In this document: piece by piece, positions 3,410 through 42,525 of the stretch
Position numbering within the stretch: position 1 is the first letter of the stretch
Layout: every line of letters begins with the position of its first letter
Assembly: GCA_035048485.1 (NCBI GenBank)
Contig: CM068589.1
Location: 3,350,501-3,414,500 of the forward strand
Direction of reading: 5' to 3'
DNA length: 64,000 nucleotides
From: Pteria penguin
Taxonomy: Eukaryota; Mollusca; Bivalvia; Pterioida; Pteriidae
Made by a program: the position numbers and the translations under genes
The notes under the pieces: model-generated
The model's input: the letters and a program-made list of their open reading frames with translations, nothing else
Database searches by the model: none
What the model was told of the DNA's origin: nothing

Positions 3410-3880
3410 AATATGTAAAGATGATGGATACATCCAAACCATAACTCCAAAAATATTCGATAGTGCTGCGGTTGCTATCAACAATATGTAACATCAACAT
3501 AAGTAAACTGTGCTCTGCCCGTTTGTACGCTAGCTCAGATCCTTGATCAATAGGAGTCCGAGTAACTATCAGCAGGGACGAGGATCAGGACCTTCTCCCC
3601 TCTGAATAGGTTTGGGCAAGGTCCGTCATAGAGTTTCAACGCCCCTGTAAGTCAGCGTGCAACGCTCAGGTAAAAGTCTGAATTGGGTTGTAGAGGGACC
3701 CAATACAAGACGTATGGTTTTACCGATAATCTCGGGATCGTGATTTTAGAACCCGCCTTATAAAATTATCGGTATCTTTGACCCTCCTTAGTGTGTACAC
3801 TAGATTACCGTAGAAATTGGGATGGCATACGTATTGTTGAGAAGTCAGATTTCCGAATTTAGATTAAACGTCTGATTAAG
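3410..3880 (-). mobile_element. Naiad tail relics, including a family A SECIS-like hairpin
   Basis: On the minus strand this intron holds family A 3' sequence: the end of the RT coding region (3780-3850), then the 3' UTR with a SECIS-like hairpin at about 3575-3645, then a short family B tail end near 3415-3450. The hairpin keeps ATGA, the AAA apical motif and TGA, with a 7-bp perfect lower helix II. A truncated equivalent lies in the paralogous intron at 56.7-57.3 kb, so this insertion is older than the receptor duplication. Confidence 0.65.
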
Positions 3881-3915
3881 ATCTGTAAACTTTACCAAAT
3901 GTTTTTCGAAGTTTA

Positions 3916-3917
<2 letters not shown>

Positions 3918-9645: not shown

Positions 9646-10499
9646 ATATGCTTTATCCATCAACTAGTGATTTGTGATCAAATGTCTCTCTCTTTTTAAA
9701 ATCTTATATTCAAATATTGTTTTGCTCTTTAAGAAAAATATTCAACCACAGAACATTCTAATTTATGAGTGAAATAATCAGAATGAATCCCCGAGTGACT
9801 GTCATAGAGATGACATACATTGATACAAAGATAAATATTTTTTTAATATAGTACAACAAATGTATTATCATAATTTTCACAAATGAGTTAAAACATTAAA
9901 ATAATAATGTTATATATGTCATCACTTGAGAAGCTAGAGGATGTGGGGCTCAATGTGTCGGGGAAACTTCTCAAACTTTGAAACAACGTTTTCGGAATCA
10001 TTCCTATAAAATTCGTAATAATTCACGACGTAAATACCAGAATTCTCTTTATAACCACTTTAATAAATACCAACATAATATTAACAATGTGAAAATAACT
10101 CCAGTAGAAAATATCTCTAAATTACCAGGTGATACGAAATCAGATGTTAAAAAACGACTTTTGGAAACCGAGCTCAACTGGATTAAACAACTACAAACCC
10201 CATACCCTCTCGGTCTCAACGACCAAATATATCGACAAGGTAATATTTCGTCTCGTCAGAATAAGATCAATATTTTTACATTAAGACATAGAACTATTAG
10301 AAAACGTAGGTCACATGGTCGTCGCCGTAATCGTAACATCAGAAAACGTAATCGTTTAAATAGGTCGTTAAACGATCTTCTATTTATCACAAAAAATAAT
10401 GGCCGTCATGAACTTTTGCATGCACTATCCTCTATTCCGGTAAATAAATGGAAACCTATCCTGGACGAAGCTGATCTTCGAAGATTACGCAGTTTTGAT

Positions 10500-10502
10500 T
10501 GA
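10500..10502 (+). other. In-frame UGA, site 1 (possible selenocysteine)
   Basis: The context is SFD-UGA-YKLNL, in frame with everything from 9978 to 11213. Family A copy 3 also has UGA here (40313-40315), while the 7.8-kb fragment has TCA. No Cys version was seen in the window, so this is the weakest of the three sites. Confidence 0.5.
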
Positions 10503-11210
10503 TATAAACTCAATTTGAATATTTTATTTTCATATAATAAACTCTTTCCTCGTATTCCGCCTCTTCCACCCAAGGAGCAATTTCTCAAAATTAAATTTAT
10601 TAATAAAGGCTTCGATCTACTTAACATTTCTAAAATTTTCCATGATCATAGAGTCACATCTAAAACCCCCCAATATTTTGAGAATTTAGAACCTCCACTT
10701 ATTTGTTACCAGTACAAAAAGCCTATAAGAAATCTTATTTTAAATTATAATAAAATTACATCTAACCCTGATGTTTCAGACTCTATTCCTTCGTCGTGTT
10801 CTTGTGAAAATTCTAAATAAGTTTATAAACCGGCAGGTCATGTTATTACTGGTGACCTAAACTGTATTTCGGACAAGAAATTGCGCACCCTTTTTGGAAA
10901 AGGACCTAAATATAGGTTTCCGTCCAGGATAGATTTCAATAAATGCCGTGACGTTATAGAAGATGCTTTAACTACATATTGTAAACGTTGGTGTAAAAAA
11001 GAACAGGTAAAGGTTCATGCTCTTAATGATTGGAAATACGAGATTTTAAGAATTGTCGATATCCGTATTAAGAACTTTACGGAAAATCCGCATTTATTTC
11101 AACAGCCTAATACATTGACGGCAAATTCTATTAAAAAGAAGATAGCTGACTTACATGCTAAATATCTCTTTGTTCCTGCTGATAAAGCAGGTAATAACAT
11201 AATAGTTGTT

Positions 11211-11213
11211 TGA
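11211..11213 (+). other. In-frame UGA, site 2 (possible selenocysteine)
   Basis: The context is NNIIVV-UGA-KLYY. The aligned position in Naiad family B is TGT (Cys, 33239-33241), in NNYTFT-C-KKYY. A UGA at a conserved Cys is the usual signature of Sec/Cys exchange. Confidence 0.65.
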
Positions 11214-12097
11214 AAACTATATTATATTGAAGTACTTAAAAACGAATTAAACTCCACTCATACATATGTGGAAAGTCCTACCACAAAAGACAGCACCTTG
11301 CACGATCACCTCATGAGCCTGTCCGACTTCAAAATTAAAACTGATAAATCTGATCTACTAACCATATATTGGCTCCCAAAACTACATAAAGTCCATATAA
11401 AACACGTTTCATATCCTATTCTAGCCACTGCTCTACTACGGTATTATCAACGCATATTACGTCTGCTCTAACTGTTATAAAAGATCAAATTATCAAATAT
11501 TGTGATGTGGCATTTCATAATAGTAACATCAATTACTTTTGGTCAATTAAAAATTCTCATGAAGTTATAGACAAACTTCTTTCGCTAAATTTCAAAGCGA
11601 CTCAAATTTCTACATTTGATTTTTCTACACTTTATACATCTCTGCCTCATGATTTGATTAAAAGCAAGTTGCTGTCTCTTATACAATGGTGTTTTCACAG
11701 AGAATCTAAAACGTACATATGTACTTCCAATAACTCCGGATTCTTTTCCAACAAACAATATACTTCATGTAAATACTGGACTTGCAAGGAATTATGTAAA
11801 GCACTAGATTTTCTCATGAATAATATTTTTGTGCAATTTGATGGCAAGATATATCAAAACATATTTGGGATTCCTATGGTTACTAACTGCGCGCCTCTGA
11901 TAGCAGATTTATTTCTTTATTGTTATGAGAGGGATTTTATGGTTTCTATTCAAAAATCAAAACGTTTTGACCTCATTGACAAATTTAATAATACTTGCAG
12001 ATATCTGGATGACATTTTGGTTATCGACAACCCTGAATTCGAAAAATTTATATCAGAAAGATATCCACCAGAGCTCACATTGAATAAAGCTAATATT

Positions 12098-12100
12098 TGA
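12098..12100 (+). other. In-frame UGA, site 3 (possible selenocysteine)
   Basis: The context is NKANI-UGA-DKSTPFLDL. Copy 3 also has UGA (41879-41881). The 36.6-kb copy has TGT (Cys, 36583-36585) in NKDNI-C-DTETRLLDL, and the 31.8-kb copy has TCC (Ser). The frame stays open on both sides. Confidence 0.7.
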
Positions 12101-12678
12101 GATAAATCTACACCTTTCTTAGATTTAAACATCAAAATTATCAACCACCTAATATATACTAATATTTATGATAAACGTGAGGATTTTGGATTTCCTATTG
12201 TAAATTTCCCTTACTTGGATGGCGATGTCCCTCGACTCCCATCATATGGTATCTATATATCTCAATTAGTTCGATTTGTCAGAGGCTGCACCGATGTTTT
12301 GGACTTTCATAAACGAAATTTACAAATTACTACTAAACTTTTAACTCAGGGTTACAGATATTACAAGCTAAGAAAAACATTCTGCAAATTCTTCAGATCT
12401 TATTCAGAACTTTTATCTAAATTTAGAAATATTTCTTTTCAACAGTATGTATCCAATGGAATTTCCCATCCTAAATTTTACGGTGATCTCGTACATAAAC
12501 TAAGAAAAGTAAAAGGCTCCGATAACGTTATTTTATCATGTAATAAAATAGTCAAACGTCTTCTAAATAGACAATATGATATTAAGATCATCAAACAGAC
12601 TATAGGTCTTGTATTTGGCCCCTCTACAGCCTAATGCAGACTTTTACTTGAACGTTGCACGCTGACTAACAGGGCGGT

Positions 12679-12744
12679 GGGGACTATATGACGGGTCTTG
12701 TCCAAACCTCTTTCAGAGGAGACATGGTCCTGAACCTCGTCCCC
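12679..12744 (+). promoter_or_regulatory. SECIS-like element (form II) in the Naiad A 3' UTR
   Basis: About 45 nt after the RT stop. Helix I is GGGGAC (12679-12684) with GTCCCC (12739-12744). The quartet strands are ATGA (12688-12691) and TGA (12731-12733). Helix II has ten of eleven positions paired between 12693-12703 and 12720-12730, counting two G-U pairs. The apical bulge is AAA (12704-12706), and mini-helix III is CCTC/GAGG with a 5-nt loop. This is the full form II SECIS layout, which recruits the machinery for reading UGA as Sec. Copies at 42.5 kb and 3.6 kb show compensatory changes. Confidence 0.8.
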
Positions 12745-12974
12745 TCTGACTGTTAGTCGGGACTCCTACAGATCTAGAGTCTTAGCTCGCTTTCAGACTA
12801 GCAGAGCACGGTTTATCATGTTGATGTTGCATATATTTTTATACCATTATGTGTTTTACAATGCCTTACGTGTTTATATTTTTATGACCTCTCAATATGC
12901 GATACCTGTTGACCCTTGTTCTTTACATGGAAGATTATTTATAAATTTTTAAATGTACGTCCTTTGATTGTTCT

Positions 12975-13193
12975 GCTGTTACGGTGAGTGGGAAGGTGGG
13001 CCCGTGAACCGGTTAACCACACCATTTGTTTGGCTTTTGTCAAATTAAATGACCGTCCTAAGTCGGTATCGTAGTTGCACTACAATCAAATATTTTTGTA
13101 ATTTGTTATATGTTCTAGTATATTAATTATATTCATGTATTGTATAGCTCCATGGTGACTTCTGCCACATAACTGAGCCAGTAACTCCTCTTT
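12975..13193 (+). repeat. Naiad family A terminal tail module
   Basis: This conserved 3' terminus runs from the TGCTGTTACGGTGAGTGGGA block through ACCGGTTAACCACACCATTT and GTCCTAAGTCGGTATCG to CAGTAACTCCTCTTT. The same module occurs at 42750-42980, alone at 7.4, 32.6 and 62.9 kb, and in older form at 8.95 and 63.2 kb. It ends exactly where LTR sequence begins at 13194. Confidence 0.75.
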
Positions 13194-13479
13194 GCGGCAC
13201 TCGACCATCACGTAAGAAACTTTGACTTGGGGATCTCGCTCTCTATTGGCTCTATTTATTATCACATCTCTACAGATAAAACATTTTGTTGTAATTTGTA
13301 AATTTACTTATTTCTTTAATTATAAAGTATAGCTGTATAATTGATATTGGGTTTAGATTATTAACGGTTAATCTATGAGATTTGTTGTTGTTCATTGTTA
13401 GTTAACTTCATTTTTTAGTTGTTTCTTTTAACAAATGTTTAACCATCAGACTCTTTAAAGAACCGTGTGTTATCTAACA
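13194..13479 (+). repeat. Truncated 5' LTR
   Basis: It corresponds to 20299-20584 of the 3' LTR and ends TCTAACA. The first 0.8 kb of the LTR, including the TATA box, is missing, so the left boundary falls a few tens of bases downstream of the expected transcription start. Confidence 0.9.
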
Positions 13480-13495
13480 TACAGACTTGTTATTT

Positions 13496-13512
13496 TGGTG
13501 CCGTGACCTGGA
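13496..13512 (+). other. Primer binding site candidate
   Basis: TGGTGCCGTGACCTGG lies 16 nt after the 5' LTR. It starts with TGG, the complement of a tRNA CCA end, as expected for minus-strand priming. The tRNA species was not determined. Confidence 0.6.
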
Positions 13513-13633
13513 TAGGACTCTGATTGGTGGAAGAGAAATCACTGAAAAGTAAGTTGACTTTGTGTTTCCCTTACGATATCATTTTATACAGGCTTATTAT
13601 CGTTATTGTTATCAATTGTTATAATTAAAGAAA

Positions 13634-14502
13634 ATGGCAGAAGTACAAGAACTAATTAACGTATTAGGTCATCAAATGCAGGGAATTCAACATGGATTAC
13701 ATGCTATAAGTAAGTGCCACATAAGATGGGAAATAGAAACGTATAGAGGGGAGAAGTCAAAGTTTCGCGAGTGGATAAAAGATATTGAAAAATATGCCAC
13801 TATCAATAATTTAGAAGACTCAGAAATGTCAAACGACAAAAAGTACCTTAAATGATTTTATTGGGAAAGTGTTGAGGACACAGGGATATACGTGGAATAG
13901 ACTTAAAAGCGAACTAGCTGTTAGGTACGCGGAGGTTAGTGACAAGCAACACACACAGGTCTTGTTACAAAATTTAAAACAAAGAAAAAATGAAGAGTTG
14001 ACCGCTTTCGGCGATCGGATAATGGAACTTGCGGAGATCGCATATGAAGATCTCACGGAGATTGGAACTCGCGAGAATTGGTAAATTTTTTCACGGACGG
14101 GTTGGTATACGACTACTTGAAAGTTAAGGTCATGAGAGAGAACCCCCGAGACTTGCAACAGGCTATAATTGTAGCCATGACGGAAGAAAATTTCCGTAAA
14201 CGGGTCAGTTTAAAGACCGGAAACCCGAACTTCAGTAAAGAAAATTTTCCGATAAATGAAGAAGGTCACGTTCCTATGGAAAGTGATCATTCTCGACCCC
14301 AGCGAAGGTCAAATACGTGGTGCTCTTATTGTAAACGTAGCAATCACTGTACGGCGAATTGTCGCCGTAGACACAGAGTAAACGAAGTCTCTAATAAAGG
14401 ACTCGGAACCCACATTCAGAGTATGTGTGCTATTTCTGTAAAAAGAAAGGTCACATCAAGCGTGATTGTTTTGCCTATCTAAATCAACAGGGAAACGAGT
14501 AG
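13634..14502 (+). pseudogene. gag: Gypsy gag, broken
   Basis: It begins MAEVQELINVLGHQ and continues through capsid-like sequence in three frames joined by shifts near 13855 and 14080. Two CCHC zinc knuckles follow: C-X2-C-X4-H-X4-C at about 14321-14362 and a second near 14428-14472, the latter in another frame, so a further shift separates them. Two knuckles are usual for the nucleocapsid part of many Ty3/gypsy Gag proteins, which package the RNA into particles. The TAG at 14500-14502 closes the frame and overlaps the start of pol. Confidence 0.8.
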
Positions 14503-17500
14503 ACGCCCCTTCTGTAATGACCAACGGGGGGAGGCTTAAAAAGAAGGTCACAAAAAGACGGGTACTTAATTTGGCAGGTAGTCCAAACTCATGTCTAATT
14601 AAAATTGGAAAACAAAAATATAGGTCTTTAGTTGATACAAGTGCAGAAGTTTCCTTAATTCATAGGCGTGTATTTGAAGGGATCAAAGATCCACCAAAAT
14701 TATTAAAACGTAGGATAGCGTTACAATCAGTAAATGGGGAAGAATTAAAAATAGATGGATTAGTCAATTTAGAAATAATTATAGGAGGGAATAAAATTGT
14801 TCAAGCATTCTATGTTACTCCAATTATGAATAGAAATGTTATATTAGGAAGGGACTTTCTAACGACTCACGGTGCACGCATTTATTTTGATTTAGGCTCT
14901 ATGCGCATTGGTAAAACTTATGTCCCTTTAGAAGAGGATATTCATATCAGTAGTTTAGTACGTTTAAATAGGAAGGTTAAAATTAAGCCAAATACTGTTA
15001 CTATATGCATGACAAAAACAAAACAATATATTCCTACTGGTGAAATGGTAGAAATATCTCCTTCTGACAAGGGTTTCGTTGATTCAGAACCTAACTTAGT
15101 GACACAGCCTTCCGTATTGACTCTGAACGATAGACAACATATACCTGTTATGTTGACAAAAACGACTGGCAAAATGCTACAATTAAGGCACGGAACTGTA
15201 GTCGGAAAAATTAAGACTGTAGGCGACAAGGTTAATGAAGTTTTTGAGGTCTACAACCAACCGACGTCCGACAAATTTGATTTAACGGACATTATTACGG
15301 ACGACCAATTTCGTGTACAGATTGAACAATTAGTAAGTAGAAATAGAAACATTTTCGCCAAGGCAGACAGCGAATTAAGACGCACTAAGACTGTAAAGAT
15401 GACAATCGACACGGGTGACCACATACCCATAAAATTAAGACCATATCGCGTGCCACTACAGCACCGGAAAACCGTAGATCATGCAATAAACGAGATGCTA
15501 GACGCGGATATAATCACTCGTTCGCAATCCCCCTGGGCTTTTCCGTTAGTGATAGTATCGAAGAAGGACGGTTCTTCTCGCATGTGCGTTGACTTTAGAA
15601 AATTGAATAAAATAAGTAAACCAATTTCATACCCGCTCCCTTTGATAGATGATATTTTGGCTCAATTAGGTGATGCTAAGTATTTCAGTAAATTAGATCT
15701 CAAATCTGGGTATTGGCAATTAGCCATGGACCCCAAGGATAAAGAGAAAACAGCTTTCACTTGTCATAAACGTTTGTTCCAGTTCAACGTTTTACCTTTT
15801 GGATTAATGGGAGGTCCCGGTGTATTTCAACAATTAATGTCAATAGTCTTAGAGGGATACGAAGACTTCAGCCTTGCTTATTTAGATGATGTAATAATTT
15901 GGTCAAAATCAGAAGAACAACACCTTTCTCACATTCAAAAAGTATTTGACAGACTAAAACAACATAATTTGAAACTAAAACTGACGAAATGTTCATTCTT
16001 TGAAAAGGAAACGGATTATTTGGGGTTTGTTATAAACAAAAATGGAATAAAACCGGACCCGGAAAAGGTGAAGGCCATTCGAACTTTACCAGCTTCCACT
16101 AATGTTAAGGAAGTCAGAAGTTTAATTGGCATGTGTAGTTATTACCGTAGATTAATTCCAAATTTTTCAAAAATAGCCGAACCTTTGATAGCGTTAACCA
16201 GAAAATATTCACGTTTTAGTTGGGATTCGAACTGTCAGAAAGCATTTGACTTTCTGAAGGACAGTTTAACAGTGGTTCCCTTATTAGCATATCCTGATGT
16301 AAACAAACAGTATACTCTGTACACTGACGCGAGTGACACGTGTATCGGCGCATGTCTGACACAGCCGTGTGCTGATTCGGCAGATGAAATCCCTAACGTA
16401 GTCAATGAGAAACCTACTTATTACTGGAGTCATAAACTTAGCCCTACTCAATGTAAATGGTCAACGGTCGAGAAGGAGGCATACGCGATCAATTATAGCC
16501 TCCAGCGTTTGGATACGTACTTACACAACGCGAAATTTACGATCAAAGCAGACCATAAGCCGTTACAATACCTCTTGGAAACACCTATGCAAAATAAAAA
16601 GATACAGTTATGGGCGATGAATTTAATGGCTTATGACTGTAATGTGGAGTATATCTCTGGCAGAGATAATACTTGTGCGGACTTGCTATCGGGATGCCTA
16701 CAAACTGTAATCATACTCCACACGGAGATGTGAAGGTTACAGATATAGACGTACATAAGAATACGTTTGAGGTAGGTGCTTTGAATTCGAACCACTTTGA
16801 TCCTAGAGACTTTGCAAGTTGCACAGTCAACGAAACTGACATAGAAAAACCTGATGTACCGGAAGTACGAGACGTAAACATGGCACAGGAGCAAGATAAG
16901 GATGAAAGCGTTGCCAAGTTGAAGACTCAAATTAGACTTGGTGATGCTTCATCATCAGACTTAAAGAGATACATAGTAGATGATAATGTCTTATATTTTG
17001 TTTCGAACCTTGATGATGATCCTGTTTTACGGTTGTACATTCCTTCTCACATGAGAGAACAGGTATTGAAGCAATATCATGATGATATGGGCCATTTTGG
17101 TGTATAAAGGTCATTTTTCAACATCAAAAGCAAATATTATTGGCCTGAGTTATATAAACATCTTAATGAATACATAAAGAAGTGTGTCACATGTCAAACT
17201 AGAAATGTGACAAAGGTCAAGGCTCCACTAATGGCTACGGACATTCCCCCGTACGCCTGGGCCAAAGTTGGACTCGATCTGTCGGGACCATACCCTACAT
17301 CGTTGTCGGGAAATAAATATATTGTAGCGTTCGTCGATCTCTACTCAGGTTATCCGGAAGCCTTTGCGGTGAAAGACAAAACGGCAGACACTATAGTTAA
17401 TCTGATGATTAATGAAATATTTCCACGATACGGGTCAGTACTTCAATTAGTAACGGATAATGGGACGGAAAACGTTAATCAGAAAATGAAGGACACTTTA

Positions 17501-18046
17501 GAGACCTTGAATATTCACCACGTAACAACGTCATTTTACCATCCACAAGGCAATGCCAAGGTCGAACGTTTTCACCGAACTTTACATGATGTAATGTCTA
17601 AACTGCTACGTGACGGACATTCAGTATGGGACTTGTATCTGAATCAAACTCTGGCTGCTATTCGGTTTAGTATTAGTGATTCTACTAAATTCTCTCCTTT
17701 CTTCCTTCTATATAACCGTGATGTAGTTCTGCCACTTGATACCATACTAAAACCACGAAAAAAATATCTCGGTGAAGACGAATACAAGATCGCCCTACAA
17801 ATACAACACCAAGCTTTTCGTGCCGTCCAAAGACATTTGAAGAAGGCTAAGAAAACACAAGCCAAAGAGGTAGACGATACTCCCCTCAAGGAGCTGCGAG
17901 ATCGCATAAGGCAAAGGCGATCTCGTCAAGAAGAACAAGAAGAAGAATTTGCCTCGTCGCCAGAAGAAGACGTCGCGACAAATGCCTGTGATGAGATGAA
18001 CATGGAGGTAGACGCAATACAAACTCATGTCACTTCCAAGATATAA
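14466..18046 (+). pseudogene. pol: Gypsy pol: protease, RT, RNase H, integrase
   Basis: The first 755-codon frame holds a protease with DTSA in place of the usual DTGA (residue about 56), RT with CVDFRKLN, GLMGGPGVF in place of the common GL.NAP..F (about 447) and catalytic YLDD (about 472), then RNase H with YTDAS (about 619). A frameshift near 16690 leads to the integrase zinc-binding region, which contains a TAA near 17107. The integrase core (17207-18046) has the three acidic residues in GLDLSG, TDNGTEN and VERFHR, then a basic C-terminal tail. Domain order RT-RH-IN is that of Ty3/gypsy. Two breaks and the altered motifs mean it is not functional as it stands. Confidence 0.9.
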
Positions 18047-18124
18047 CTGCATGATTTCTAATTCGGCAACTAACCTTATTTGGTGTCTACGGATAGTGGA
18101 TAAGGGAATGTATTACCCTGAGCC

Positions 18125-18200
18125 GTATAAAATGTAATCAACAATTTGATTTATGTACCCTTAATGTAATCAGCAATTTGATTGATGTACCCTTAATTGC
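18125..18200 (+). repeat. Short tandem duplication between pol and env
   Basis: The block AATGTAATCARCAATTTGAT followed by TATGTACCCTTA-like sequence occurs twice in a row, then a CTTAATTGCAG run that could serve as a splice acceptor for a subgenomic env RNA. The splice role is a guess. Confidence 0.5.
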
Positions 18201-18281
18201 AGAATGGCCGCTGTAACAACCAATACAATTTTGTGGACTTAAAAACCTATATTTCCAGTAAATCTCAGTAAAGTTTGTATT

Positions 18282-18873
18282 TTGGCACTTTTCACGAAGA
18301 ATCGTATCAAAGATAGCTGTAAAACTGTTATTTATCCTAATGCTTATCTACCTATGGCCAGGTATATCGCCGACGGATACTACCCCATTACGACGCGGAA
18401 ACACCTTGCATTCTCACAGGTCTGTAAGCATACGTCACAAACAAAATCACTTACGGTTAAACCCCCTATGGGAATCGTAAAACTTAAACGATTTTGCTTT
18501 GTATCTAGTGAATCTATTTTATTACCTGCGTTCTTTCATGAGGAAAGTCATTATAATATTTCAGGACTTTTGGACAAGTTTGATTTGCACTTTAACATTT
18601 CAAAAATTCAATTCTGGGAATCTGTTAGACTATCTGTGCACAATCTTACCTTACCTGAGTTGCCAAAAGCTCTAGAAACCATTAAAGACATGCCTGTGGA
18701 TACATTTATTGAGACATTAAAATAACCTTGAACCAATTGAAAAAGAATTTGTATTTCCTAATTGGGCTTATGCATTTATTGCTTTTATATGGGCTTTTGC
18801 AAGTGGGGTTTTTATTTTTTTATATTGTAAGTACAGAAGTAAAGGTAAATTTTTTGAGAGCCTGTTTTCGTAA
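18282..18873 (+). pseudogene. env: Env-like glycoprotein remnant of the gypsy element
   Basis: A third ORF follows integrase. The first frame (18282-18725) has Cys residues and two NIS N-glycosylation sequons. After a small frameshift near 18722 comes a strongly hydrophobic membrane-spanning stretch (about 18770-18830) and a short basic tail ending at 18873. This layout, ectodomain then single C-terminal anchor, fits a retroviral-type envelope protein, but no signal peptide or cleavage site was found and the N-terminal half seems absent. It is damaged and not expressible as one product. Confidence 0.6.
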
Positions 18874-19128
18874 GGAAAGCACAAAAGTTCAACTGCTTCA
18901 TTTGAGAAAAATGATGCGAAAAATTATCTATCTGATGCCTTATCTAATCATGAGTTAAGTGTATTAATAGATAAACTAAAGTCAACAATAGGTTACCTAA
19001 TGCCCCACCAATGCCAAAAGAGCAACAGAGACAGGAAGTCAAGGATGGTCAAAACAAAAGTGCTATGTATCCAGTGCTGCAAGTTACGCCAGCCACGTCC
19101 TAAAAACGGGATAAAGTTACGAGGGTCG

Positions 19129-19352
19129 AGAGCGAGACGACGCTCTTTGCCCTCAGAAGATCTGAGCTATGAACTTTTGCTATGAACTGATGTTGGGTCG
19201 AGAGCGAGACGACGCTCTTTGCCCTAGAAGACTTGAACTTTGAAAGTGAACCATCAGTCGGGGATGAGACGACATCCCTTGCCACTCTGCAATTTTGTGC
19301 TATTTCAAGTAAAGCAACATTCAACATTCGGTCAGGGACGAGACGTCGTCCC
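19129..19352 (+). repeat. Array of four stem-loops before the 3' LTR
   Basis: Hairpins lie at 19129-19146, 19201-19218, 19261-19278 and 19335-19352. Each has a perfect 6-bp stem. The loop is AGACGA in the first three and AGACGT in the fourth, and each is followed by TTGCC. The stems differ but stay paired: AGAGCG/CGCTCT twice, GGGATG/CATCCC and GGGACG/CGTCCC. Spacing is 60 to 74 nt. This points to selection on RNA structure, perhaps for export, packaging or translation of the element RNA. Confidence 0.75.
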
Positions 19353-19477
19353 TTGCCAGGAATTCAAACTATGTTTAGGGTAACAAACGCAGTGCAGATC
19401 AACAACAGATTGGATGAAGAACCACCATGAAGAGGATTTAGTTCCAATGTGGTGTACCAATTCGTTGTAGTGTTTTA

Positions 19478-19488
19478 AAGGAGGGGAC
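19478..19488 (+). other. Polypurine tract
   Basis: AAAGGAGGGGA lies directly before the 3' LTR start TGTGTCAG and is the expected plus-strand primer site. Confidence 0.8.
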
Positions 19489-19607
19489 TGTGTCAGTGGG
19501 TCATAATAATACCCGCCCCCCCCCCCCTAAAAAGTACACATAGTACTTTGTACAGTGATTATATTGTGTATTAATCGTGTTATTTATAATAATTGTATGC
19601 ACTTGTA

Positions 19608-19706
<99 letters not shown>

Positions 19707-20584
19707 ATGATTGCATTTCTCATGCTGCAACGACACCAGCAACCTTGGAGCCGATGGGCCCGTCATTCCCTGGAGATTGGTATCGTAACATTATGAAGGA
19801 CCAAATGCAGGACAAATTTTCCATAGAAATCTACTCGGTATATTTCTAGTGGTTATGGGAGGAGTGTAAGATAGTCATCTTATACCGCTACCTGGATCCG
19901 CCTCGTAACGTGGATGTGACCCCGTAAACGGACAGACTGTTTATTTGAACACCGGAACTACGACGTTGCATTCTAAAGCGACTCATTGAACTTTTCACCG
20001 GAGTCATCTTTACTTGGAGGGACATGAAAAACTTATAAAAATCCAAAAAACTATACATGGGACTATTTACCGAAGTCACCGCCACTTAGAGGGACAAGAT
20101 AACTTATAATTTAATAGATTTGTACTATGGTGGTAATAGTAAATGTCATCTCAAACTATGAAAACTAATAGATTTGTACTATTGTGGTAATAAATAAATG
20201 TCATCTCAATTTAAGTACCGCTCGTAAAAAGAGAGCAGATTTCGTATAAAAGATCCAGCGGTCGCTAGGCCGGTCAGATCCCGACTTGGACCCAAACTGC
20301 GGCACTCGACCATCACGTAAGAAACTTTGACTTGGGGATCTCGCTCTTTATTGGCTCTATTTATTATCACATCTCTACAGATAAAACATTTTGTTGTAAT
20401 TTGTAAATTTACTTATTTCTTTAATTATAAAGTATAGCTGTATAATTGATATTGGGTTTAGATTATTAAAGGTTAATCTATGAGATTCGTTGTTATTCAT
20501 TGTTAGCTAACTTCACTTTTTAGTTGTTTCTTTTAACAAATGTTTAACCATCAGACTCTTTAAAGAACCGTGTGTTATCTAACA
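19489..20584 (+). repeat. Full 3' LTR
   Basis: It starts TGTGTCAG and ends TCTAACA, about 1.1 kb. It contains a C-run (19510-19527), a (TA)n tract (19611-19702), two internal direct repeats (ATAGATTTGTACTATKGTGG at about 20115 and 20168), a TATA box TATAAAAG at 20245-20252, and the R-U5 part shared with the 5' LTR. Open frames of alternating Ile-Tyr across the TA tract are artefacts. Confidence 0.85.
19611..19702. repeat. (TA)n microsatellite in the 3' LTR
   Basis: About 90 bp of TA. The corresponding part of the 5' LTR is missing, so its age cannot be judged. Confidence 0.95.
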
Positions 20585-21540: not shown

Positions 21541-22000
21541 GGAGATCATTGATATGCAATACATTTTGGATGTTTATGCATGTGCTACTTATGTAGCATC
21601 CTATATCACTAAAGTCATCTACTAAGAAAAGCTTCAAAAGAAGTAAAAGCAGTAAATACTACCTTAAAGCAAGAAATTCGTGCAGTTGGAAACAAATTCA
21701 GATAAGTGCTAAGGAAGCTGCATATATATGTTTACAACTACCGATGAAAAAATCATTCAGACATGTAGTATTTGTGAATACAAGTCCACCAAATGAAAGA
21801 GTAACACTGCTCAAATCGAGAGAGATGCTGGATAACATGGAAGATGATAGTGACACTATTGAGTGTAGCAATGATATTGTTCGTTATTTTGAAAAACCTA
21901 AATCCCTAGAAAAACTACACTAGCTGACTTCATTGCTTTCTATGAAAAAGACATCAAACCTTAATATTGCGCCTTAAAGAAGTGTTGTAGATGCCAGCCT
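21541..22000 (+). pseudogene. Helentron Rep region, second part
   Basis: VYACATYVASYITK near 21580 matches the Rep motif with paired tyrosines used for rolling-circle cleavage. SAKEAAYICLQLPMKKSFRHV (near 21705-21765) and VNTSPPNERVTLLKS follow. Frameshifts lie near 21625 and 21900. Confidence 0.75.
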
Positions 22001-23890
22001 TCTGCAAGAAGCTAATTACATCAATGATGATGAGGAAGAAAATAGTGACCAAGAAGACAGCAATGAAGATACAAACTTATATACAAAATATAGAAGTAAA
22101 AAAACAAAATGCAAACCAAGAAAAAGAATATAGACGAAGAAAACATGCAAACAGTGCACTTCAACCCATCTGTTACAGAGAGATTATAATGCTTTACTAT
22201 TCATGGAGGGATGAAGAAGCCCTTAAAGAAAGTGAGCAAACATATGTTGAATGGTACAATATGATAAAAGAAGAAATAGAGCTTACAAGAAAAGAATATG
22301 AACCCTTTGCAGAGGCAGTCGATGCTGCCCAACATTATCTTCAAGAAAATGAAAATCATGAAGATTCTTGGGATCAGCTTGCCCCCGAAAATCAGCAAGC
22401 AGGTGAGGAAGATATTCCGGATGCTACAGAAGCACCAGATAGTGGTATAGAAGATCCTGATATTGGACAGGCACTGGGCATGGCTGTAACGTCAAATGAC
22501 AAAGAACTACACCAACACCATGAAAGGGATGATGAAGAATATAGGGCTCATATGCGCAAATTCACCGCAGCTCAAATAGAGCTTGTTTATGATACAATCC
22601 ATCAAATCAAAACTTCAGAAGAACCAATATACCGTTTTCTTAGTGGAGGGGCTGGGATAGGAAGAAGTTATGTCACAAAAGCTCTTTACCAAACAGCACT
22701 TAAATGTCTGAATGCCAGAGCTGGGGAAGACTATTCATCACGAAAAGGTTTTGTGTTGGTTCCCACTGGTAAGGCTGCTTACCATGTTAAAGGCACAACG
22801 ATACACTTAGGTCTCAAGATACCAGCAAATCAGAGATTGGAACATAAGCCATTACCAAGTTCCTTCTTAAGCACACTAAGAACTGAAATTAGTAAAGTAG
22901 AGCAGATGTTTATAGATGAAATCTCTATGGTGGGCTTCAAACTCTTCAATTGTATAAATCAAAGATTGACGGAGGTCATGCAATCACATAAACCATTTGG
23001 TGGCATCTCAATAATTGCTGTTGTTGATTTGTTCCAACTCAAACCTGTAATGGACAGTTATATATTTTCACAGCCAACCATTGGTTATTTACCCTTAGCA
23101 ATAAATCCCTGGCAGGGATGATTAAACTTACAGAAATTTTGCGACAAGCAGATAACAATACGTTCGCAGAGCTTTTAAATAGATTGAGGGAAGGAAATAA
23201 AACAGAACCTGACATCACAACTCTCAAACAAAAAATCCATCAAAAGAGGACTAATCTAAAGAATATCCCCATCTGTTTGCAACAAACGATCAGGTAAATT
23301 CATACAATAGCAGAGTCATCTAGGAAATGCATTCACCAAACATTAATATCCCGGCAAAGGATCTTGTTGTTGGATCCACACCTTCTTCTATGAAAGAAAA
23401 GATAATATCCAGTTTCAGAAACTCTTCACAAACAAAACAACTTCATAATGATCTTCAACTTTGTGAAGGAGTATGGTATGATCTAACAATCAATTTAGAC
23501 ACACACGATAGACAGATCAATAGAGCGTCCTGCCTTCTTAAAACGATTGACACACCAAGGGGAATATTGACAGCATCAGGAAACTTATGGGTCCTATTTC
23601 AAGATAAAGATATGGGTACAAATCTTCGGAAGAATTGTCGGCGCCTCTATAAAAAGCGTATTAATGCTAACTGGACACCCATTGAACCTGTGGTGAAACA
23701 GTATCCTGCTGGTCATTAAGGACAAGCTCTTGTTCAACGTCTCCAGTTCCCTTTAATGCCAGCACATGCAAAGACAGTTCATAGGTCGCAAGGTTACACT
23801 CTTTCCACTGCAGTAATAGACCTTACATCCAGAAAAAGTGGATCATCTTCACTATGCAGTAATTAGGAGGGTTACTAATATAGAACATCT
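21991..23890 (+). pseudogene. Helentron PIF1-like helicase
   Basis: The 376-codon frame 21991-23121 includes a MLYYSWRDEE block, a variable acidic linker, then a superfamily 1 helicase with Walker A GGAGIGRSY (the usual Lys is Arg), Walker B FIDEISMVG and DLFQLKPV. The later motifs continue at 23327-23870 with stops and shifts, ending with AHAKTVHRSQGYTLS. The helicase would unwind DNA during rolling-circle transposition. The Walker Lys change alone should abolish ATP hydrolysis. Confidence 0.85.
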
Positions 23891-31255: not shown

Positions 31256-32540
31256 TGATACATAATAACGCTGGGGATAAGTCTGCATTGGGTTGTAAAG
31301 GGACCCAATACAAGATATATGGTCTTAGCGATGATCTTGGGGTCATACTGTGGATGTCGAACGCGTTTAATATTTTTAGAAGCAGTCGATATGAAATTAT
31401 CGGAACCTTTGACCCTCCTTAGTTTGTACACTAGATCGTATAAATTGGGATGGGAAATTCCTCTGGATATATATTGTTGAAAAGTAACATTTTCGAATTA
31501 AGATAAAATGTCTGAACAAGATCTATAAAATTTACCAAAAGTTTTTCGAAGTTTATGATATGTATAACCCCGAGTAAGAAGTTTAAAAGTAATCTCAGAG
31601 TTTTTTTTTCGTGAAAATCCAAAGCGTTAGTGCAGGCTCTAGCAAACCGAACCAATTGACTAATATAAATACCATATGATGGGAGTCTGGGGACATCACT
31701 GCCTAGATAAGTGAATTTTACAAATGGAATTCCAAAGTAATCACGTTTATCATATATGTTGGTATGAATATTGTTGTTAATAATTTTAATATTAAGTCCA
31801 AAAAAGGTGTTTCCTGGTCGGAAGTATTGGCTTTGTTTCATTGAAGTTCAGAGGACAAATGTCAGTGATATAGTTTTCAAACTCAGGGTTATCGATTACT
31901 AAAATATCATCAAGATATATAGAGGTGCCATTGAACTTATCAGTAAGGTCGAAACGTTTAGAAGTTTGAATAGAATGCATACAGTCTCTCTCACAACAGT
32001 ACAAAAATAAATCTGCTATAAGGGGCGTGCAGTTAGTGTCCATAGGAATCTCAATAATCTGTTGATAAGTCTTGCCATTAAATTGTACATCAATATTATC
32101 CATCAAAATGTGATGGCAATACACAACTCAGTACAAGTCCAATATTTACAATTATCATATTGTTTGTTAGAGAAAAATCTAGATGTAACAAGTACAGAGG
32201 TATGATTTAGACTCTCTGTGGAAACACCAGCGTATGAGAGACAGCAATGTGGTTTTCATTAAGTCAATTGGTAAAGAGGTATATAGTGTAGAAAAATCAA
32301 AAATAGAAACGTTATTAGCCTCAAAATTTCTCAAATGGAATTTTTCAATGACTTCGTTAGAATGTTTAATAGACGTAACGTAATTGACGTTACTGTTGTT
32401 GAAGACAGCATTACAATACTTGATAACATGGCAAGACTCCATTGGTGTGGTTAACCAGGTTACGGGATCAACAGTCTCCCAAGTCGAGAGGTCAGAAACA
32501 TATTTTCACACGAAACGGTTAAAGAATAATATTGAAAAAA
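31256..32540 (-). pseudogene. Naiad family A copy 4
   Basis: Minus strand: YCNAVFNNSNVNYVTSIKHS, FDFSTLYTSLP, then NIDVQFNGKTYQQIIEIPMD, a YLDD-containing block and the C-terminal LDLNIKIINNNIHTNIYDKR region, spread over three frames. At UGA site 3 this copy has TCC (Ser, 31820-31822). Coding similarity stops just after the ORF end, so there is no SECIS. A family A tail lies directly upstream (32.6 kb), as in tandem Penelope-like insertions. Confidence 0.75.
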
Positions 32541-32770: not shown

Positions 32771-33149
32771 TAGCTCTGAAATGAATTAACAAGGACGTGT
32801 AGAAATGTAAATAACTCCATTTTACGAAAAAATACATATTTCAATCATTTTACAACCACAATACAATTCAAACCTATTGAAGGAATTGAAATTGAATGTT
32901 ATCTAAGGATAGTCCTAAGAAAAGAAAATAACGAACAATGCGCAAAGATGACGCTAAACAGAGGGAAAAAAGGACACAAAATGGAAAATAATGAAAATTT
33001 ACACAAAGAGTCGATTTTATTTCTTACATCAGTTTCAAATCTGTTTACAAAGTCTCTGACATGAAAAGGTAATTTCGCTTTTTCTTAGAGGAATTTTTAT
33101 CATCACACCAGCAGGAAAACTTCAAACGATTATCAGTTTATTTTTAAAG

Positions 33150-34534
33150 ATCCTGGTGTTGTCAGAGAACTTACCTTCCTCCAAGAACATTATATCATTA
33201 CACTAGCAGATAAAGCATCCAATAATTATACATTTACTTGTAAGAAATATTACTTTGACAGCCTAGTGAAAGAATTAGGATTAAATTCAGCTCCAGGAAA
33301 TCCTACTTATACTCTCACGAACTTTTCGGTTTCGGAAGTACTCGAAAATCATAAATCTGTCCTCAATACGTTTGGTATTGACTCAAATAAATTGAATTTA
33401 GAACTTCCATATTTGTACTGCATTCCAAAAATGCACAAAAATCCTTACAAACAACGCTTTATCGCTGGTTCCTCGAAGTGTTCCACAAAATCTGTATCGA
33501 TGCTACTCACAAAAATATTATCAGAAATTAAATCTGGCCTTCACAGATATTGCAAAACAGTATATTCCAGAAGTGGAATTAATCAAATGTGGATCCTTAA
33601 AAATTCAAAAGAGTTGTTAGAAAATCTAAAATCAGAAAGTTTTACTAAAATTCACTCTATCAAATCTTTTGACTTTTCGACTCTTTACACAACGATCCCT
33701 CATCAGAAATTAAAAGAAAGATTAGCGGAAATTATTCAAAATGCATTTACTAGTATAAACGGAAGCCGCAAATTCAAATATATAGTAATAGGCCACGATA
33801 AAACTTACTTTGTTAGGGAAAATTCTGATTCCAAAAATAAATACACTGAAACAGCTGTCATCCAGATGTTGAACTTTCTTATCGATAACATTTTTGTGGT
33901 GTTTGGAGGTAAGGTTTTTCAACAAATTGTCGGCATTCCAATGGGCACTAACTGTGCTCCGCTTCTGGCTGACATATTCCTTTACTCATACGAAGCTGAA
34001 TTCATTCAGTCTTTGCTTTCGCAAGGAAAAAAACAATTGGCTCTTGGCTTCAATTTTACTTACAGATATATAGATGACTTGCTTTCAATTAATAATCCTT
34101 CATTCGCGGATTACCTTAGCATCATCTATCCAAGTGAACTTGAGGTCAAGGAAACCACAGAAAGTAATAATTCTTCTTCGTATTTAGATATTATGTTGTC
34201 TTTCGACATTAATGGTCAATTGAACACCTCACTCTATGACAAACGTGACGATTTCAATTTCGCTATCACAAACTTTCCTTTCATAGGTAGCAACATTCCA
34301 TCATCGCACGAATACGGCGTATTCATATCTCAGTTAATACGTTATTCCAGAGCATGTTCAAATTACAATGATTTTGTTCTGAGGGCTAGGCGACTTTCAG
34401 TTAAGCTGCTCAACCAGGGTTATATATGTACTAGACTACCATCGTGACTGAGGAAATTCTACGGCCGTTACGAGACTCTTATTACTCCATATGATATCTC
34501 GTTATCCAGACTTTTAAATGATATTCTGGACTGA
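33150..34534 (+). pseudogene. Naiad family B copy 4, longest RT ORF
   Basis: This is the best preserved family B copy. It is open from about 33150 to an internal TGA at 34445. Order: LQEHYIITLADKASNN, TCKKYY (Cys at 33239), IPKMHKNPYKQRF, FDFSTLYTTIP, GIPMGTNCAPLLADIF, catalytic YIDD (near 34067), DIMLSFDINGQLNTSLYDKR. The TGA at 34445 replaces the Ser codon TCA found in sister copies and removes about 29 residues before the family stop at 34532. The N-terminal endonuclease and CxC region are missing by 5' truncation. RT related to telomerase RT is known for Penelope-like elements. Confidence 0.85.
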
Positions 34535-35629: not shown

Positions 35630-36900
35630 TGTAGCTGCGATACCGACCTGGGACGGTCAATAGCTATGACAGTCGTCAATCAATTGGAGTGTTTAACCTG
35701 TTTACGGGTGCTCCTCCCCACTTTCCACAAAAGCAGTATATCAAAGAACACATTTAAGAATCTATGAATAATCCTCCATATAGAGAGCAAGCATCAACAA
35801 CTTTCTCAAGTTGACAGGTCATAAAAATATAAACATGTATAGTAATGCTGAGTAAAACTTAGATATCAAAAATATATAAATCGACATCAAGCGAGCTCAG
35901 ACCCTTGATCTATAAGTGTCCAATTAACAGTAAGAGGGAATGACGTTCAGGACCATATCTCCTTTGAAATAGGTTTCAACAAAGCCCACCGTAAAGCCCC
36001 CACCCGCCTGTCAGTAAGTGTACAGGTTCAAGTAAAAATCTCTATATACAAGTGTAGAATGAGTCAATACAAGAATTACTGTCCTTTTGATGATCTCCTG
36101 GTCATATTATTGTAGATCACGAAGGCCTTTTACTATTTTGGAACCCAACGAGATAAACTAATTGGAATCTTAGACCCTCTTAAGTTTGTACACAAGGTCA
36201 CCGTAGAAATTGGGATTGGAAATTCCATTGGATACAAAGTAATATATCGGAATTGTGAAAAGATTCTGAATAGGACCTAAAACAATTTCCAAAGGATTTT
36301 CTAAGTTTATGATAATTGTAACACTGAGCTGAAAGTTCCAACGTTATTTGTAAATTGTTTTGTATGAAAGTCAAAATCGTTAATGCAGGCGCTGGTAAAT
36401 CGAAGCAACTTAATTTTATGAAAACCATATGAAGGGAGTCTAGTGTAGGAACATCTGTAACCATCGAACTAAAGGAAATTTACAACAGGGAATCTAACAT
36501 TTCCATGTTTATCATAAATATTGGTATAGATTTTATTGTTAATTCTCTTAATGTATAGGTCCAACAAACGTGTTTCTGTATCACAAATATTGTCTTTGTT
36601 TGACTGAGGTTCAGGTGGATATATGTTAGCTATATATCTGTCAAAGTCAGGGTTATCAATAAATAAGATGTCGTCAAGATACATGTACATGTAACTAGAG
36701 GTATCATCCAACATCTCAACAGGTCGAATCGTTTAGATTGTTGAACCAGCCCCCCCCCCCCCCCCCCCCCCCCCCCGCTTGACAGTATAGAAAGAAATCT
36801 GCTATAAGAGGTGCACAGTTAGTTCCCGTAGAAATCCCAACTATCTGCTGATAAATCGTGCCATTACATTCAAGTAACAAATATTGTAGGTTTGTCCATG
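35630..36900 (-). pseudogene. Naiad family A copy 5, Cys variant
   Basis: Minus strand: RT part with GTIYQQIVGISTGTNCAPL, a poly-G insertion, YLDD-type motif MYLDDILFIDNPDF (near 36670), NKDNICDTETRLLDL, then a decayed C-terminus, 3' UTR and tail module to 35630. At UGA site 3 it has TGT, Cys (36583-36585). In the 3' UTR the SECIS-like hairpin keeps AAA and the 3' TGA (near 35945), but the 5' ATGA has changed to ACGG-like sequence. Confidence 0.75.
36751..36776. repeat. Poly-C tract within the Naiad RT
   Basis: About 26 C residues interrupt the RT coding sequence of copy 5 after the LYCQ block. Confidence 0.95.
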
Positions 36901-39087: not shown

Positions 39088-39772
39088 AATGTAAAGATGA
39101 TGGATAAATCCAAACCACAAGTCCAAAAATCATGAAACCATAGGACATACAAAATCAGTGAACATGAAAAACAAATGGAAAATAACAAAATATGTCTACT
39201 TGAAGAGCATATGTGAACCCCTGTGATGGAGTGAGATCAGGTGCCCGGGGAGAGTGAGCATCCCCTGCTTGCTAGCAACACCCGTCACATATACCCCGTA
39301 AAAAGAGTCAAATCGTGTGAATTCCATATGTATTTATATATGGAGAAGTCGAAGTAGGTAACCTTCTAGTATAGAAGGTGTCAAATCTGTGTAAAGTGAT
39401 CGGAATCGGTCTCAATCCAGAATATCATTTAAAAGTCTGGATAACGAGATATCATATGGAGTAATAAGAGTCTCGTAACGACCGTAGAACTTCCTCAGTG
39501 GCGATGGTAGTCTAGCACATATAGAACCCGGGTTGAGCAGCTTAACTGAAAGTCGCCTAGCCCTCAGAACAAAGTCATTGTAATTTGAACATGCTCTGGA
39601 ATAACGTATTAACTGAGATATGAATACGCCTTATGCGGGCGATGATGGAATGTTGCTACTTATGAAAGGAAAGTTTGTGATAGCGAAATTGAAATCGTCA
39701 CGTTTGTCATAGAGTGAGGTGTTCAATTGACCATTAATGTCGAAAGACAACATAATATCTAAATACGAAAAA
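39088..39772 (-). pseudogene. Naiad family B copy 5, 3' part, inverted
   Basis: On the minus strand it starts at SYLDIMLSFDINGQ, only about 4 nt beyond where the 38.2-kb part ends, and continues to the family B tail end at about 39088. The two parts therefore come from one insertion split by an inversion of about 0.9 kb (38866-39772), which also moved 220 bp of flanking DNA. Confidence 0.8.
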
Positions 39773-40312
39773 TCTGAAACCACGTTCTCGGAATCATTCC
39801 TATAAAATTCGTAATAATTCACGACGTAAATACCAGAATTTTCTTTATAACCACTTTAATAAATACCAACATAATATCAACAATGTGAAAATAACTCCAG
39901 TAGAAAATATCTCTAAATAACCAGGTGATACGAAATCAGATGTTAAAAAACGACTTTTGGAAGCCGAACTCTACTGGATTAAACAACTTTAAACCCCATA
40001 CCCTCTAGGTCTCAACAACCAAATATATCGACAAGGTAATAGTTCTTCTTGTCAGAATAAGATCAATATTTTTACATTAAGATATAATACTATTAGAAAA
40101 CGTAGGTCACATGGTCGTCACCGTAATCGTAATATCAGAAAACGTAATCGTTTAAATAGGTCATTAAACGATCTTGTACTTATCGCAAAAAAAAAAAAAA
40201 AAAAAAAAATAATGGTCGTCATGAACTTTTGCATGCACTATCCTCTATTCCGGTAAATAAATTGAAACCTATCCTGGACGAAGCTGATCTTCGAAGTTTA
40301 CGCAATTATGAT

Positions 40313-40315
40313 TGA
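40313..40315 (+). other. In-frame UGA, site 1, copy 3
   Basis: The context is NYD-UGA-YKL, matching 10500-10502 in copy 1. Confidence 0.5.
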
Positions 40316-41878
40316 TATAAACTCAAATTGATTATTTTATTTTCATATAATAAACTCTTTCCTCGTATTCCGTCTCTTCCACCTAAGCAACAATTTCTCA
40401 AAATTAAATTTATTAATAAAGGCTTCGATCTACTTAACATTTCTAATATTTTCCGTGACCATAAAATCACATCTAAAATCCCTCAATATTTTGAGAATTT
40501 AGAACATCCACTTATTTGTTACCAGTACAAAAAGCCGATAAGAAATCTTATTTTAAATTATAATAAAGTTACATGTAACGCTGATATTTCAGACTCTATT
40601 TCTACGTCGTGTTCTTGTGAAAATTCAAAATATCTTTATACACCGGCAGGTCATGTTATTACTGGTGACCTAAACTGTATTTCAGACAAGAAATTGCGCA
40701 CCCTTTTTGGAAAAGGACCCAAATATAGGTTACAGTCCAGGATAGATTTCAATAAATGCCGTGACGTTATAGAAGATGCTTTAGCTACATATTGTAAACG
40801 ATGGTGTAAAAAAGAACAGGTAAAGGTTCATGCTCTTAATGATTGGAAATACGAGATTTTAAGAATTGTCGATATCCGTATTAAGAACTTTACGGAAAAT
40901 CCGCATTTATTTCAACAGCCTAATACATTGACGGCAAAGTCTATTAAAAAGTGGATAGCTGATTTACATGCTTAATATGCCTTTGTTCCTGCTGATAAAT
41001 CAGGTAATAACATAATATTAAAAACGAATTAAACTCCACTCATACATATGTGGAAAGCCTTACCTCATAAAAGACAGCACCTTGCACGATCTCCTCATGA
41101 CAATGTCTGATTTCAAAGTTAAAACTGATAAATCTGATCTACCAACCATGTATTGGCTCCCAAAACTACATTAAAGTCAATATAAATCACGTTTCATATC
41201 TAATTATAGCCACTGCTCTACTACGGTACTATCGAAACATATTACGTCTGCTCTAACTCTTATAAAATCATATTCTCAAATATTGTGATGTTGCATTTCA
41301 TAATAGTAACATCGATTACTTTTGGTCAATTAAAAATTCTCATGAAGTTATAGGCAAACTTCTTTCACTAAATTTCAAAGCGACTCAAATTTCTACATTT
41401 GATTTTTCTACACTTTATACATCTCTGCCTCATGATTTGATTAAAAGCAAGTTGCTGTCTCTTATACAATGGTGTTTTCACAGAGAATCTAAAACTTACA
41501 TATGTACTTCCAATAACTCCGGATTCTTTTCCAACAAACAATATAATTCATATAAATACTGGACTTGCAAGGAATTATGTAAAGCACTAGATTTTCTCAT
41601 GAATAATATTTTTGTGCAATTTGATGGCAAGATATCAACAATTAATTGGGATTCCTATGGGTACTAACTGCCCGCCTCCAATAGCAGATTTATTTCTTTA
41701 TTGTTATGAGAGAGATTTTATGGTTTCTATTCAAAAATGAAAACGTTTCGACCTCATTGACAAATTTAATAATACTTGCAGATATCTGGATGACATTTTG
41801 GTTATCGATATCCCTGAATTCGAACAATCTATATCAGAAATATATCCAACAGAGCTCAAATTGAGTATAGCTAATACT

Positions 41879-41881
41879 TGA
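41879..41881 (+). other. In-frame UGA, site 3, copy 3
   Basis: The context is ANT-UGA-DKSTPFLDL, matching 12098-12100 in copy 1 and Cys at 36583-36585 in copy 5. Confidence 0.65.
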
Positions 41882-42459
41882 GATAAATCTACACCTTTCT
41901 TAGATTTAAACATCAAAATTATCAACCACCTAATATATACTAATATTTATGATAAACGTGGGGATTTTGGATTTCCTATTGTAAATTTTCCTTACTTGGA
42001 TGGCGATGTCTCTCCACTCCCATCATATGGTATCTATATATCTCAATCAGTTCGATTTGTCACAGGCTGCACCGATGTTTTGGACTTTCATAAACGAAAT
42101 TTACAAATTACTACTCAACTTTTAACTCAGGGTTAAAGATATTACAAGCTAAGAAAAACATTCGGAAAATTCTTCAGATCTTATTCAGAACTTCTATCTA
42201 AATTTGGAAATATTTCTTTTCAACATTATGTATTCAATGAAATTTCCCATCCTAATTTTTAAGGTGATCTCATATATAAACTAAGGAGAGTAAAAGGCTC
42301 CGATAACGTTATTTTATCATGTAATAAAATAGTCAAACGTCTTCTAAATAGACAATATGACATTGAGATCATCAAAAAGACTATAGGTCTTGTATTTGGC
42401 CCCTCTACAGCCTTATGCAGACTTTTACTTGAACGTTGCACGCTGACTAACAGGGCGGT

Positions 42460-42525
42460 GGGGACTATATGACGGGCCTTGTCCAAATCTCTTTCAGAGG
42501 AGACATGGTCCTGAACCTCGTCCCC
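42460..42525 (+). promoter_or_regulatory. SECIS-like element, Naiad A copy 3
   Basis: Same layout as at 12.7 kb: helix I GGGGAC (42460-42465) with GTCCCC (42520-42525), ATGA (42469-42472), AAA (42485-42487), TGA (42512-42514). The two differences keep pairing: a U-G pair in helix II becomes C-G (T to C at 42477), and the outermost C-G pair of mini-helix III becomes U-G (C to T at 42488). Confidence 0.8.

Follow-up and report, generated by a model that had tools for sequence, protein, structure and literature searches.

The open reading frame of family A, a Naiad-type Penelope-like retrotransposon of the bivalve Pteria penguin, very probably encodes a selenoprotein with five selenocysteine (Sec) residues, and on its sequence the family has been active recently. 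The in-frame UGA codons are very probably Sec codons because the copies keep them and nearly all of the copies carry a SECIS element. We propose that the host tRNA-Sec inserts Sec at the five UGAs, directed by the SECIS in the element's own RNA; tRNA-Sec and SECIS are both present, and the decoding itself is what we infer. A sixth UGA, in the SECIS core, would serve as the terminator, since a UGA inside the SECIS can presumably not be decoded as Sec. At one site on each side of the GIY motif and at a third where the reverse transcriptase (RT) begins, Sec would take the place of a conserved Cys, and may serve the roles of the Cys that it replaces, which we take to be metal binding in the endonuclease, as in other Penelope-like elements. 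The two remaining sites, codons 325 and 858, would be later gains of Sec at positions that did not hold Cys.

The window analysed is a stretch of 64,000 nucleotides (positions 3,350,501 to 3,414,500 of contig CM068589.1, forward strand) from an 838-Mb genome assembly of 49 contigs (GCA_035048485.1). Its main copy, W1, is a decayed, 5'-truncated member of the young Naiad-type Penelope-like family A, with two private TAA codons and a 1-nt shift near 11390 (Table 1). The ORF of the family has a length of about 1,054 codons, with an N-terminal GIY-YIG endonuclease, a CxC linker and a C-terminal RT. Complete copies have a fifth, more upstream in-frame UGA at codon 123, which is absent from the truncated W1. 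An earlier reading made from the letters of the window alone (the sequence-only reading) had placed the ORF between 9941 and 12634, and both ends have to be moved. On the 5' side a further in-frame UGA lies at 9927–9929, for a total of five upstream UGAs in complete copies. On the 3' side the TAA at 12632 is private to W1, and the frame passes it to reach the common terminator, a UGA that belongs to the AUGA core of the SECIS. A coding extension beyond this terminator, to a TAA at 12950, seems less probable: at this point P0007 and P0009 continue with Trp, but their resemblance to the family A frame ends, as judged by eye, after WRALS. In the second family A copy of the window, W3, the UGA equivalent to that at 11211 has been lost through a local deletion.

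Table 1. Family A copies, their recoding signals and related elements in the 64,000-nt window. Counts are of homologous copies in the 41-copy alignment.
Feature	Coordinates	Strand	Remarks
W1, family A ORF	9906–12691	+	starts within GIY motif (NVIYVIT), ends at common UGA terminator
UGA, putative Sec site 2 (codon 134 of complete ORF)	9927–9929	+	UGA in 18/18
UGA, putative Sec site 3 (codon 325)	10500–10502	+	UGA in 31/31; aligned homologues without Cys
CxC motif (CSC), between GIY-YIG and RT	10797–10805	+	sequence reading
Private TAA lesion of W1	10818–10820	+
UGA, putative Sec site 4 (codon 562), RT start	11211–11213	+	UGA in 39/39; aligned with conserved Cys (DKAxNN....C)
UGA, putative Sec site 5 (codon 858)	12098–12100	+	UGA in 39/40, TTA in 1
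Private TAA lesion of W1, close to ORF end	12632–12634	+
SECIS of W1 (RF00031)	12680–12743	+	34.7 bits, E 2.5e-4
In-frame UGA, putative terminator inside SECIS AUGA core	12689–12691	+	UGA in 38, UAA in 1 (n=39)
W3, second family A copy, SECIS included	39765–42524	+	UGA retained at 40313–40315 and 41879–41881
SECIS of W3 (RF00031)	42461–42524	+	35.9 bits, above gathering score 35
3' fragment of related copy	3575–3917	−	weaker SECIS match at 3575–3637, 28.2 bits, E 0.23
Family B, Cys-type Naiad RT, in-genome control	33089–34447	+	TGT at 33239
Subfamily C fragment	31291–32430	−	Ser at the 12098 site
Copy 5, degenerate relative	36053–36880	−	TGT (Cys) at 36583; SECIS-like remnant without AUGA

A 393-bp query gave 1,728 candidate places in the genome, of which the best 40, W1's own among them, were scored and proved 99–100% identical. 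The alignment consists of 39 fetched genomic copies together with W1 and W3 (n=41), and is a biased sample, since it was drawn from the 40 highest-scoring matches to a single query. On its majority columns the UGAs at 10500, 11211 and 12098 share a common frame; the single protein alignment proposed for them by the sequence-only reading, with its coordinates, is correct. When a copy was counted at a codon on the basis of locally homologous sequence there, UGA occupied 143 of the 144 homologous cells over the five fixed internal codons, including 16 of 16 at codon 123. The remaining 35,128 cells hold 24 stops (18 TAA, 4 TAG and 2 TGA), with none common to two copies; in-frame UGA is thus conserved across the 41 copies while other stops are not. 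No TAA or TAG in homologous cells is common to two of the copies, in agreement with the earlier description of two lesions, TAA 10818 and the frameshift near 11390, as private. The retention check proposed with that description, made here on 41 individual copies, found UGA kept and other stops rare and private, which is the opposite of sense codons at these sites or of UGA being no more frequent there than elsewhere. Without the homology filter the tallies of UGA are 32/39 at 10500, 40/40 at 11211 and 39/41 at 12098, and nearer the 5' end, which many copies lack through truncation, 20/41 at 9927 and 21/41 at codon 123. The frame is open from codon 134, the second UGA, to the terminator in eight of the 41 copies (L010, L019, L020, L022, L024, L036, L041 and L043). 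Median pairwise divergence within the family is 1.0% (codons 431–1054; 780 pairs from 40 copies, W3 omitted).

The residues found at these sites in homologous proteins were read from a search with the full-length reading of one natural copy (L019), which yielded 19 homologues, of which 15 were aligned and the four weakest omitted. At codons 123 and 134 the nine homologues with a full GIY-YIG region have Cys, P0124 has Trp and the others are gapped, apart from P0122, in which Cys at codon 134 stands in a doubtful alignment. At codon 562, Cys is found in 12 of the 15 homologues and Trp in three. At codons 325 and 858 none of the 15 has Cys, and the degenerate copy 5 of the window has Cys at the latter. 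Of the five UGAs, three (the GIY-YIG pair and 11211) are thus Cys-equivalent among the homologues, as the sequence-only reading had proposed for its own three, and 10500 and 12098 are not. P0124 has Trp at all four of the UGA sites that it covers, P0121 at two of three, with Ser at 858, and P0122 at one of two (the doubtful Cys 134 aside), also with Ser at 858. Such Trp residues are as would be expected if a gene caller had translated UGA as Trp, or if the codon were UGG. The analysis suggests that gene callers split such proteins or render their UGAs as Trp.

L019 had no match to Pfam at E up to 1, and among the window pieces no Pfam match exceeded its cut-off (RVT_1 in family B, at E 1.8e-4, was below its own). 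A profile of 16 relatives gave no convincing match among PDB chains. At the DNA level no relatives were found among viral contigs or, with P0121 as query, among genome contigs, and a profile search of the latter contigs returned two matches. In the Naiad-like P0125 and P0126, the GIY-YIG and RT are followed by a ubiquitin carboxyl-terminal hydrolase domain (PF00443) at the C-terminus. Two further Naiad-like proteins, P0048 and P0053, come from Candidatus Thiodiazotropha MAGs and are probably host contamination.

A search of the window with RF00031 at E up to 10 gave three matches, which are the SECIS elements of W1 and W3 and the weaker match on the minus strand (Table 1). The SECIS check that the sequence-only reading had suggested for the 3' region was thus positive. 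The W1 score, from a 4.3-kb search, is slightly below the Rfam gathering score of 35, and L019 and L043 each match with 36.6 bits. Across family A the hairpin was aligned in 39 of the 41 copies (missing from L035 and L042); in two of these 39, L011 and L013, the AUGA, AAA and UGA core is broken, which leaves 37 copies with an intact core. The SECIS of W1 starts 45 nt beyond the premature TAA. Its folding energy is unremarkable (z −1.5; 22 of 200 shuffles fold equally well), and the evidence for a SECIS comes from the RF00031 match, the core and the placement. The terminator extends beyond family A: among 20 copies of the sister subfamily selected by their strong SECIS, TGA follows as the next codon, in the SECIS core, in 16 of 16 whose alignment reaches the last residue. 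Among 27 relatives with a GTI motif near the end, 13 continue with Trp, 12 terminate and two have another residue, which suggests that the UGA terminator is probably shared with relatives in other genomes. Tentatively, and as a possibility that falls short of the probable, we suggest that one codon has two position-fixed meanings in a single ORF, Sec at the five upstream UGAs and stop at the UGA of the SECIS core, so that recoding signal and stop codon would coincide, and that such elements have spread SECIS through the genome to the point where its strongest ones are transposon-borne (20 of 20 sampled from 85), which might tie retrotransposition to the selenium supply of the host.

A search of the genome with RF01852 gave 13 matches, five of them above the cut-off, and tRNA identity was assigned for the top four. 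Those with the highest scores, 77.8 and 77.3 bits, are a pair of tRNA-Sec genes with the anticodon TCA, whereas ranks three and four (47.2 bits) are tRNA-Ser. The assembly, which has 14 large contigs (C14 is 30.7 Mb, C15 140 kb), gave no match to COX1 (PF00115). In 20 of the contigs C15–C49 the longest frames of the initial 500–1,500 bases contained, by eye, no mitochondrial gene, and ARAGORN detected no tRNA in the 12 of these that it covered. Among PDB chains, the ferritin exons of the host come closest to 6lij, 6ljg, 7dlb and, in fourth place, 6lp5 from the razor clam Sinonovacula constricta, a weakly bivalve-like signal. A whole-genome search with RF00031 gave 28,938 first-look candidates, of which 150 were scored and 85 reached E up to 0.001, all of these above the cut-off. 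From the 85 strong SECIS elements we sampled 20, the top ten and ten lower ones, with an intact core as a selection criterion, and in 20 of 20 a Naiad C-terminus lies immediately upstream. These results suggest that SECIS-based annotation of selenoproteins in such genomes would be swamped by transposons. Taken with UGA retention, the SECIS and the host tRNA-Sec support the earlier proposal of a probable selenoprotein retroelement.

Two related families in the same genome provide a comparison. Family B gave 3,609 candidates, of which 40 were scored, the other 39 at 98% identity. Cys is present at both GIY-YIG sites in two family B copies, and the window copy has TGT at the position given in Table 1; this codon, the TGT at 36583 in copy 5 and the TGA at 41879 in copy 3 were all confirmed as the sequence-only reading had given them. 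A search of the 1 kb that follows each of two family B copies gave no SECIS, and the family B RT gave no convincing PDB chain. Two family B 3' ends (L098 and L099) have a common in-frame TGA (ILD-stop-D) where P0001 has Asp, with no SECIS near it, and this TGA is most simply the family B terminator.

Subfamily C is an older, Sec-type sister subfamily. Its search gave 6,778 candidates, of which the best 40 were scored, mostly at 86–91% identity, and eight loci (L070–L077) were read. Codon 562 is UGA in L072, L073, L075 and L077 (the last at 42% identity), L072/L073 and L075/L077 being apparent near duplicates; L076 may have TGT, in a poor 41-residue alignment, and the other loci do not cover the site. 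Codon 858 is Ser (TCC) in eight of eight. In 11 upstream stretches of subfamily C, codons 123, 134 and 325 were not readable. A SECIS is present in part of the subfamily C copies (RF00031 at 35.3 bits in L076 and 26.4 bits in L071). The core is intact in none of the seven copies that were not chosen for their SECIS (L071–L077), and these copies are therefore decayed. L085, a further locus fetched from a C region, turned out to be a fragment of family A that has UGA at codon 858. Four subfamily C copies lie on the same strand within 64 kb (G000:C3:9572546-9636250), an arrangement that suggests local duplication. Nei-Gojobori dN/dS between A and C is 0.08–0.27 in 15 comparisons, which share one common reference, include near-duplicate copies and exclude matches below 60% identity or 100 residues; one more comparison was undefined, and the A fragment L085 gave 0.66. 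Seven of the comparisons cover sequence past codon 925, where all five UGAs have been passed, and give dN/dS of 0.15–0.27; selection has therefore acted on the part of the protein encoded after the fifth UGA. With Sec-type and Cys-type families and an older Sec-type subfamily that has Ser at one site, the order in which Cys or Ser gave way to Sec becomes testable.

The UGAs could also be lesions passed down from a master copy that is inactive and is moved in trans by the enzyme of another element. Other Penelope-like families are indeed abundant in the genome and 33 of the 41 copies are truncated or damaged, but no TAA or TAG has become fixed, three of the UGAs stand at conserved Cys sites and a SECIS is present. 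Purifying selection relative to subfamily C continues past the UGAs, and dN/dS well below 1 downstream of codon 858 largely refutes this origin, which we regard as very improbable. Just as improbable, in our estimate, is readthrough in which a suppressor tRNA, or a near-cognate one, inserts Trp, Arg or Cys at the UGAs, with no role for selenium. The Trp residues at UGA sites of P0121, P0122 and P0124 would fit such readthrough, but they are most simply the work of a caller that translates UGA as Trp, and readthrough would explain neither the SECIS nor the rarity of UGA elsewhere in the frame (2 in 35,128 cells).

Even less probable is that the hairpin is a retrotransposition signal, a 3' template structure that matches RF00031 by chance, with the pieces between the UGAs being separate ORFs expressed by reinitiation. 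The position of the fold at the ORF end near a pseudo-LTR and its weak folding z-score are compatible with this idea. Yet no such structure is found in the 1 kb downstream of the two Cys-type family B copies, the AUGA, AAA and UGA core has been preserved in all but four of the family A copies, and some of the UGAs interrupt the GIY-YIG domain, where separate ORFs make little sense.

Beyond the 3' end of W1 lies an LTR retroelement (13193–20584) with a Ty3/Gypsy-like pol, as judged by eye, and LTRs at 13193–13479 and 20298–20584 that are 98% identical. It abuts the Naiad, which by eye is not resumed after 20584. An ORF at 21991–23121 has ATP-binding helicase motifs and, by eye, is PIF1/Helitron-like.

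A CxC motif between the endonuclease and the RT is defining for Naiads, which are also characterised by an insertion-in-fingers domain and by an RT phylogeny that places them within the Naiads. The CSC motif of W1 is also present in L043 and L010. PF01541 is matched above its cut-off in P0125, P0126 and P0129, and in P0125 and P0126 RVT_1 lies more C-terminally, below its cut-off. L019 aligns with P0125 and P0126 across both GIY-YIG and RT, which places its GIY-YIG N-terminal to its RT. The sequence-only reading's order of GIY-YIG, CxC and RT is thus borne out and agrees with that of Naiads. Pseudo-LTRs are indicated in one copy, L019, in which an identical 26-nt string occurs upstream and downstream of the ORF.

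Naiads that code for Sec were reportedly described in clams and spiders by Craig, Yushenova, Rodriguez and Arkhipova in 2021 (in Mol Biol Evol 38:5005). Our literature search, in a coverage that does not include Craig et al. 2021, found no paper on Penelope-like or Naiad elements and selenoproteins. The clam and spider elements are reported to be like family A in having an N-terminal GIY-YIG, a CxC motif and a C-terminal RT, pseudo-LTRs, several in-frame UGAs and a high copy number. Family A would thus be an addition to the Sec-coding Naiads that have been reported. The Cys-type Naiads (family B and P0125–P0135) have a homologous protein, with the domains in identical order in P0125 and P0126, the two in which both can be recognised. 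They differ in that codons 123, 134 and 562 are Cys where family A would have Sec and, for family B, in that no SECIS was found in the 1 kb after the two copies. Selenoproteins are rare and expensive to make, and recoding would be taken to an extreme by a mobile element that encodes five Sec residues. Host selenoproteins with multiple Sec residues, such as selenoprotein P, likewise combine several UGA-Sec codons with a SECIS on the same mRNA. Family A would share this arrangement with selenoprotein P but, unlike it, is a mobile element, in which the one SECIS found would have to serve five UGAs over ∼2.8 kb and overlaps the terminator.
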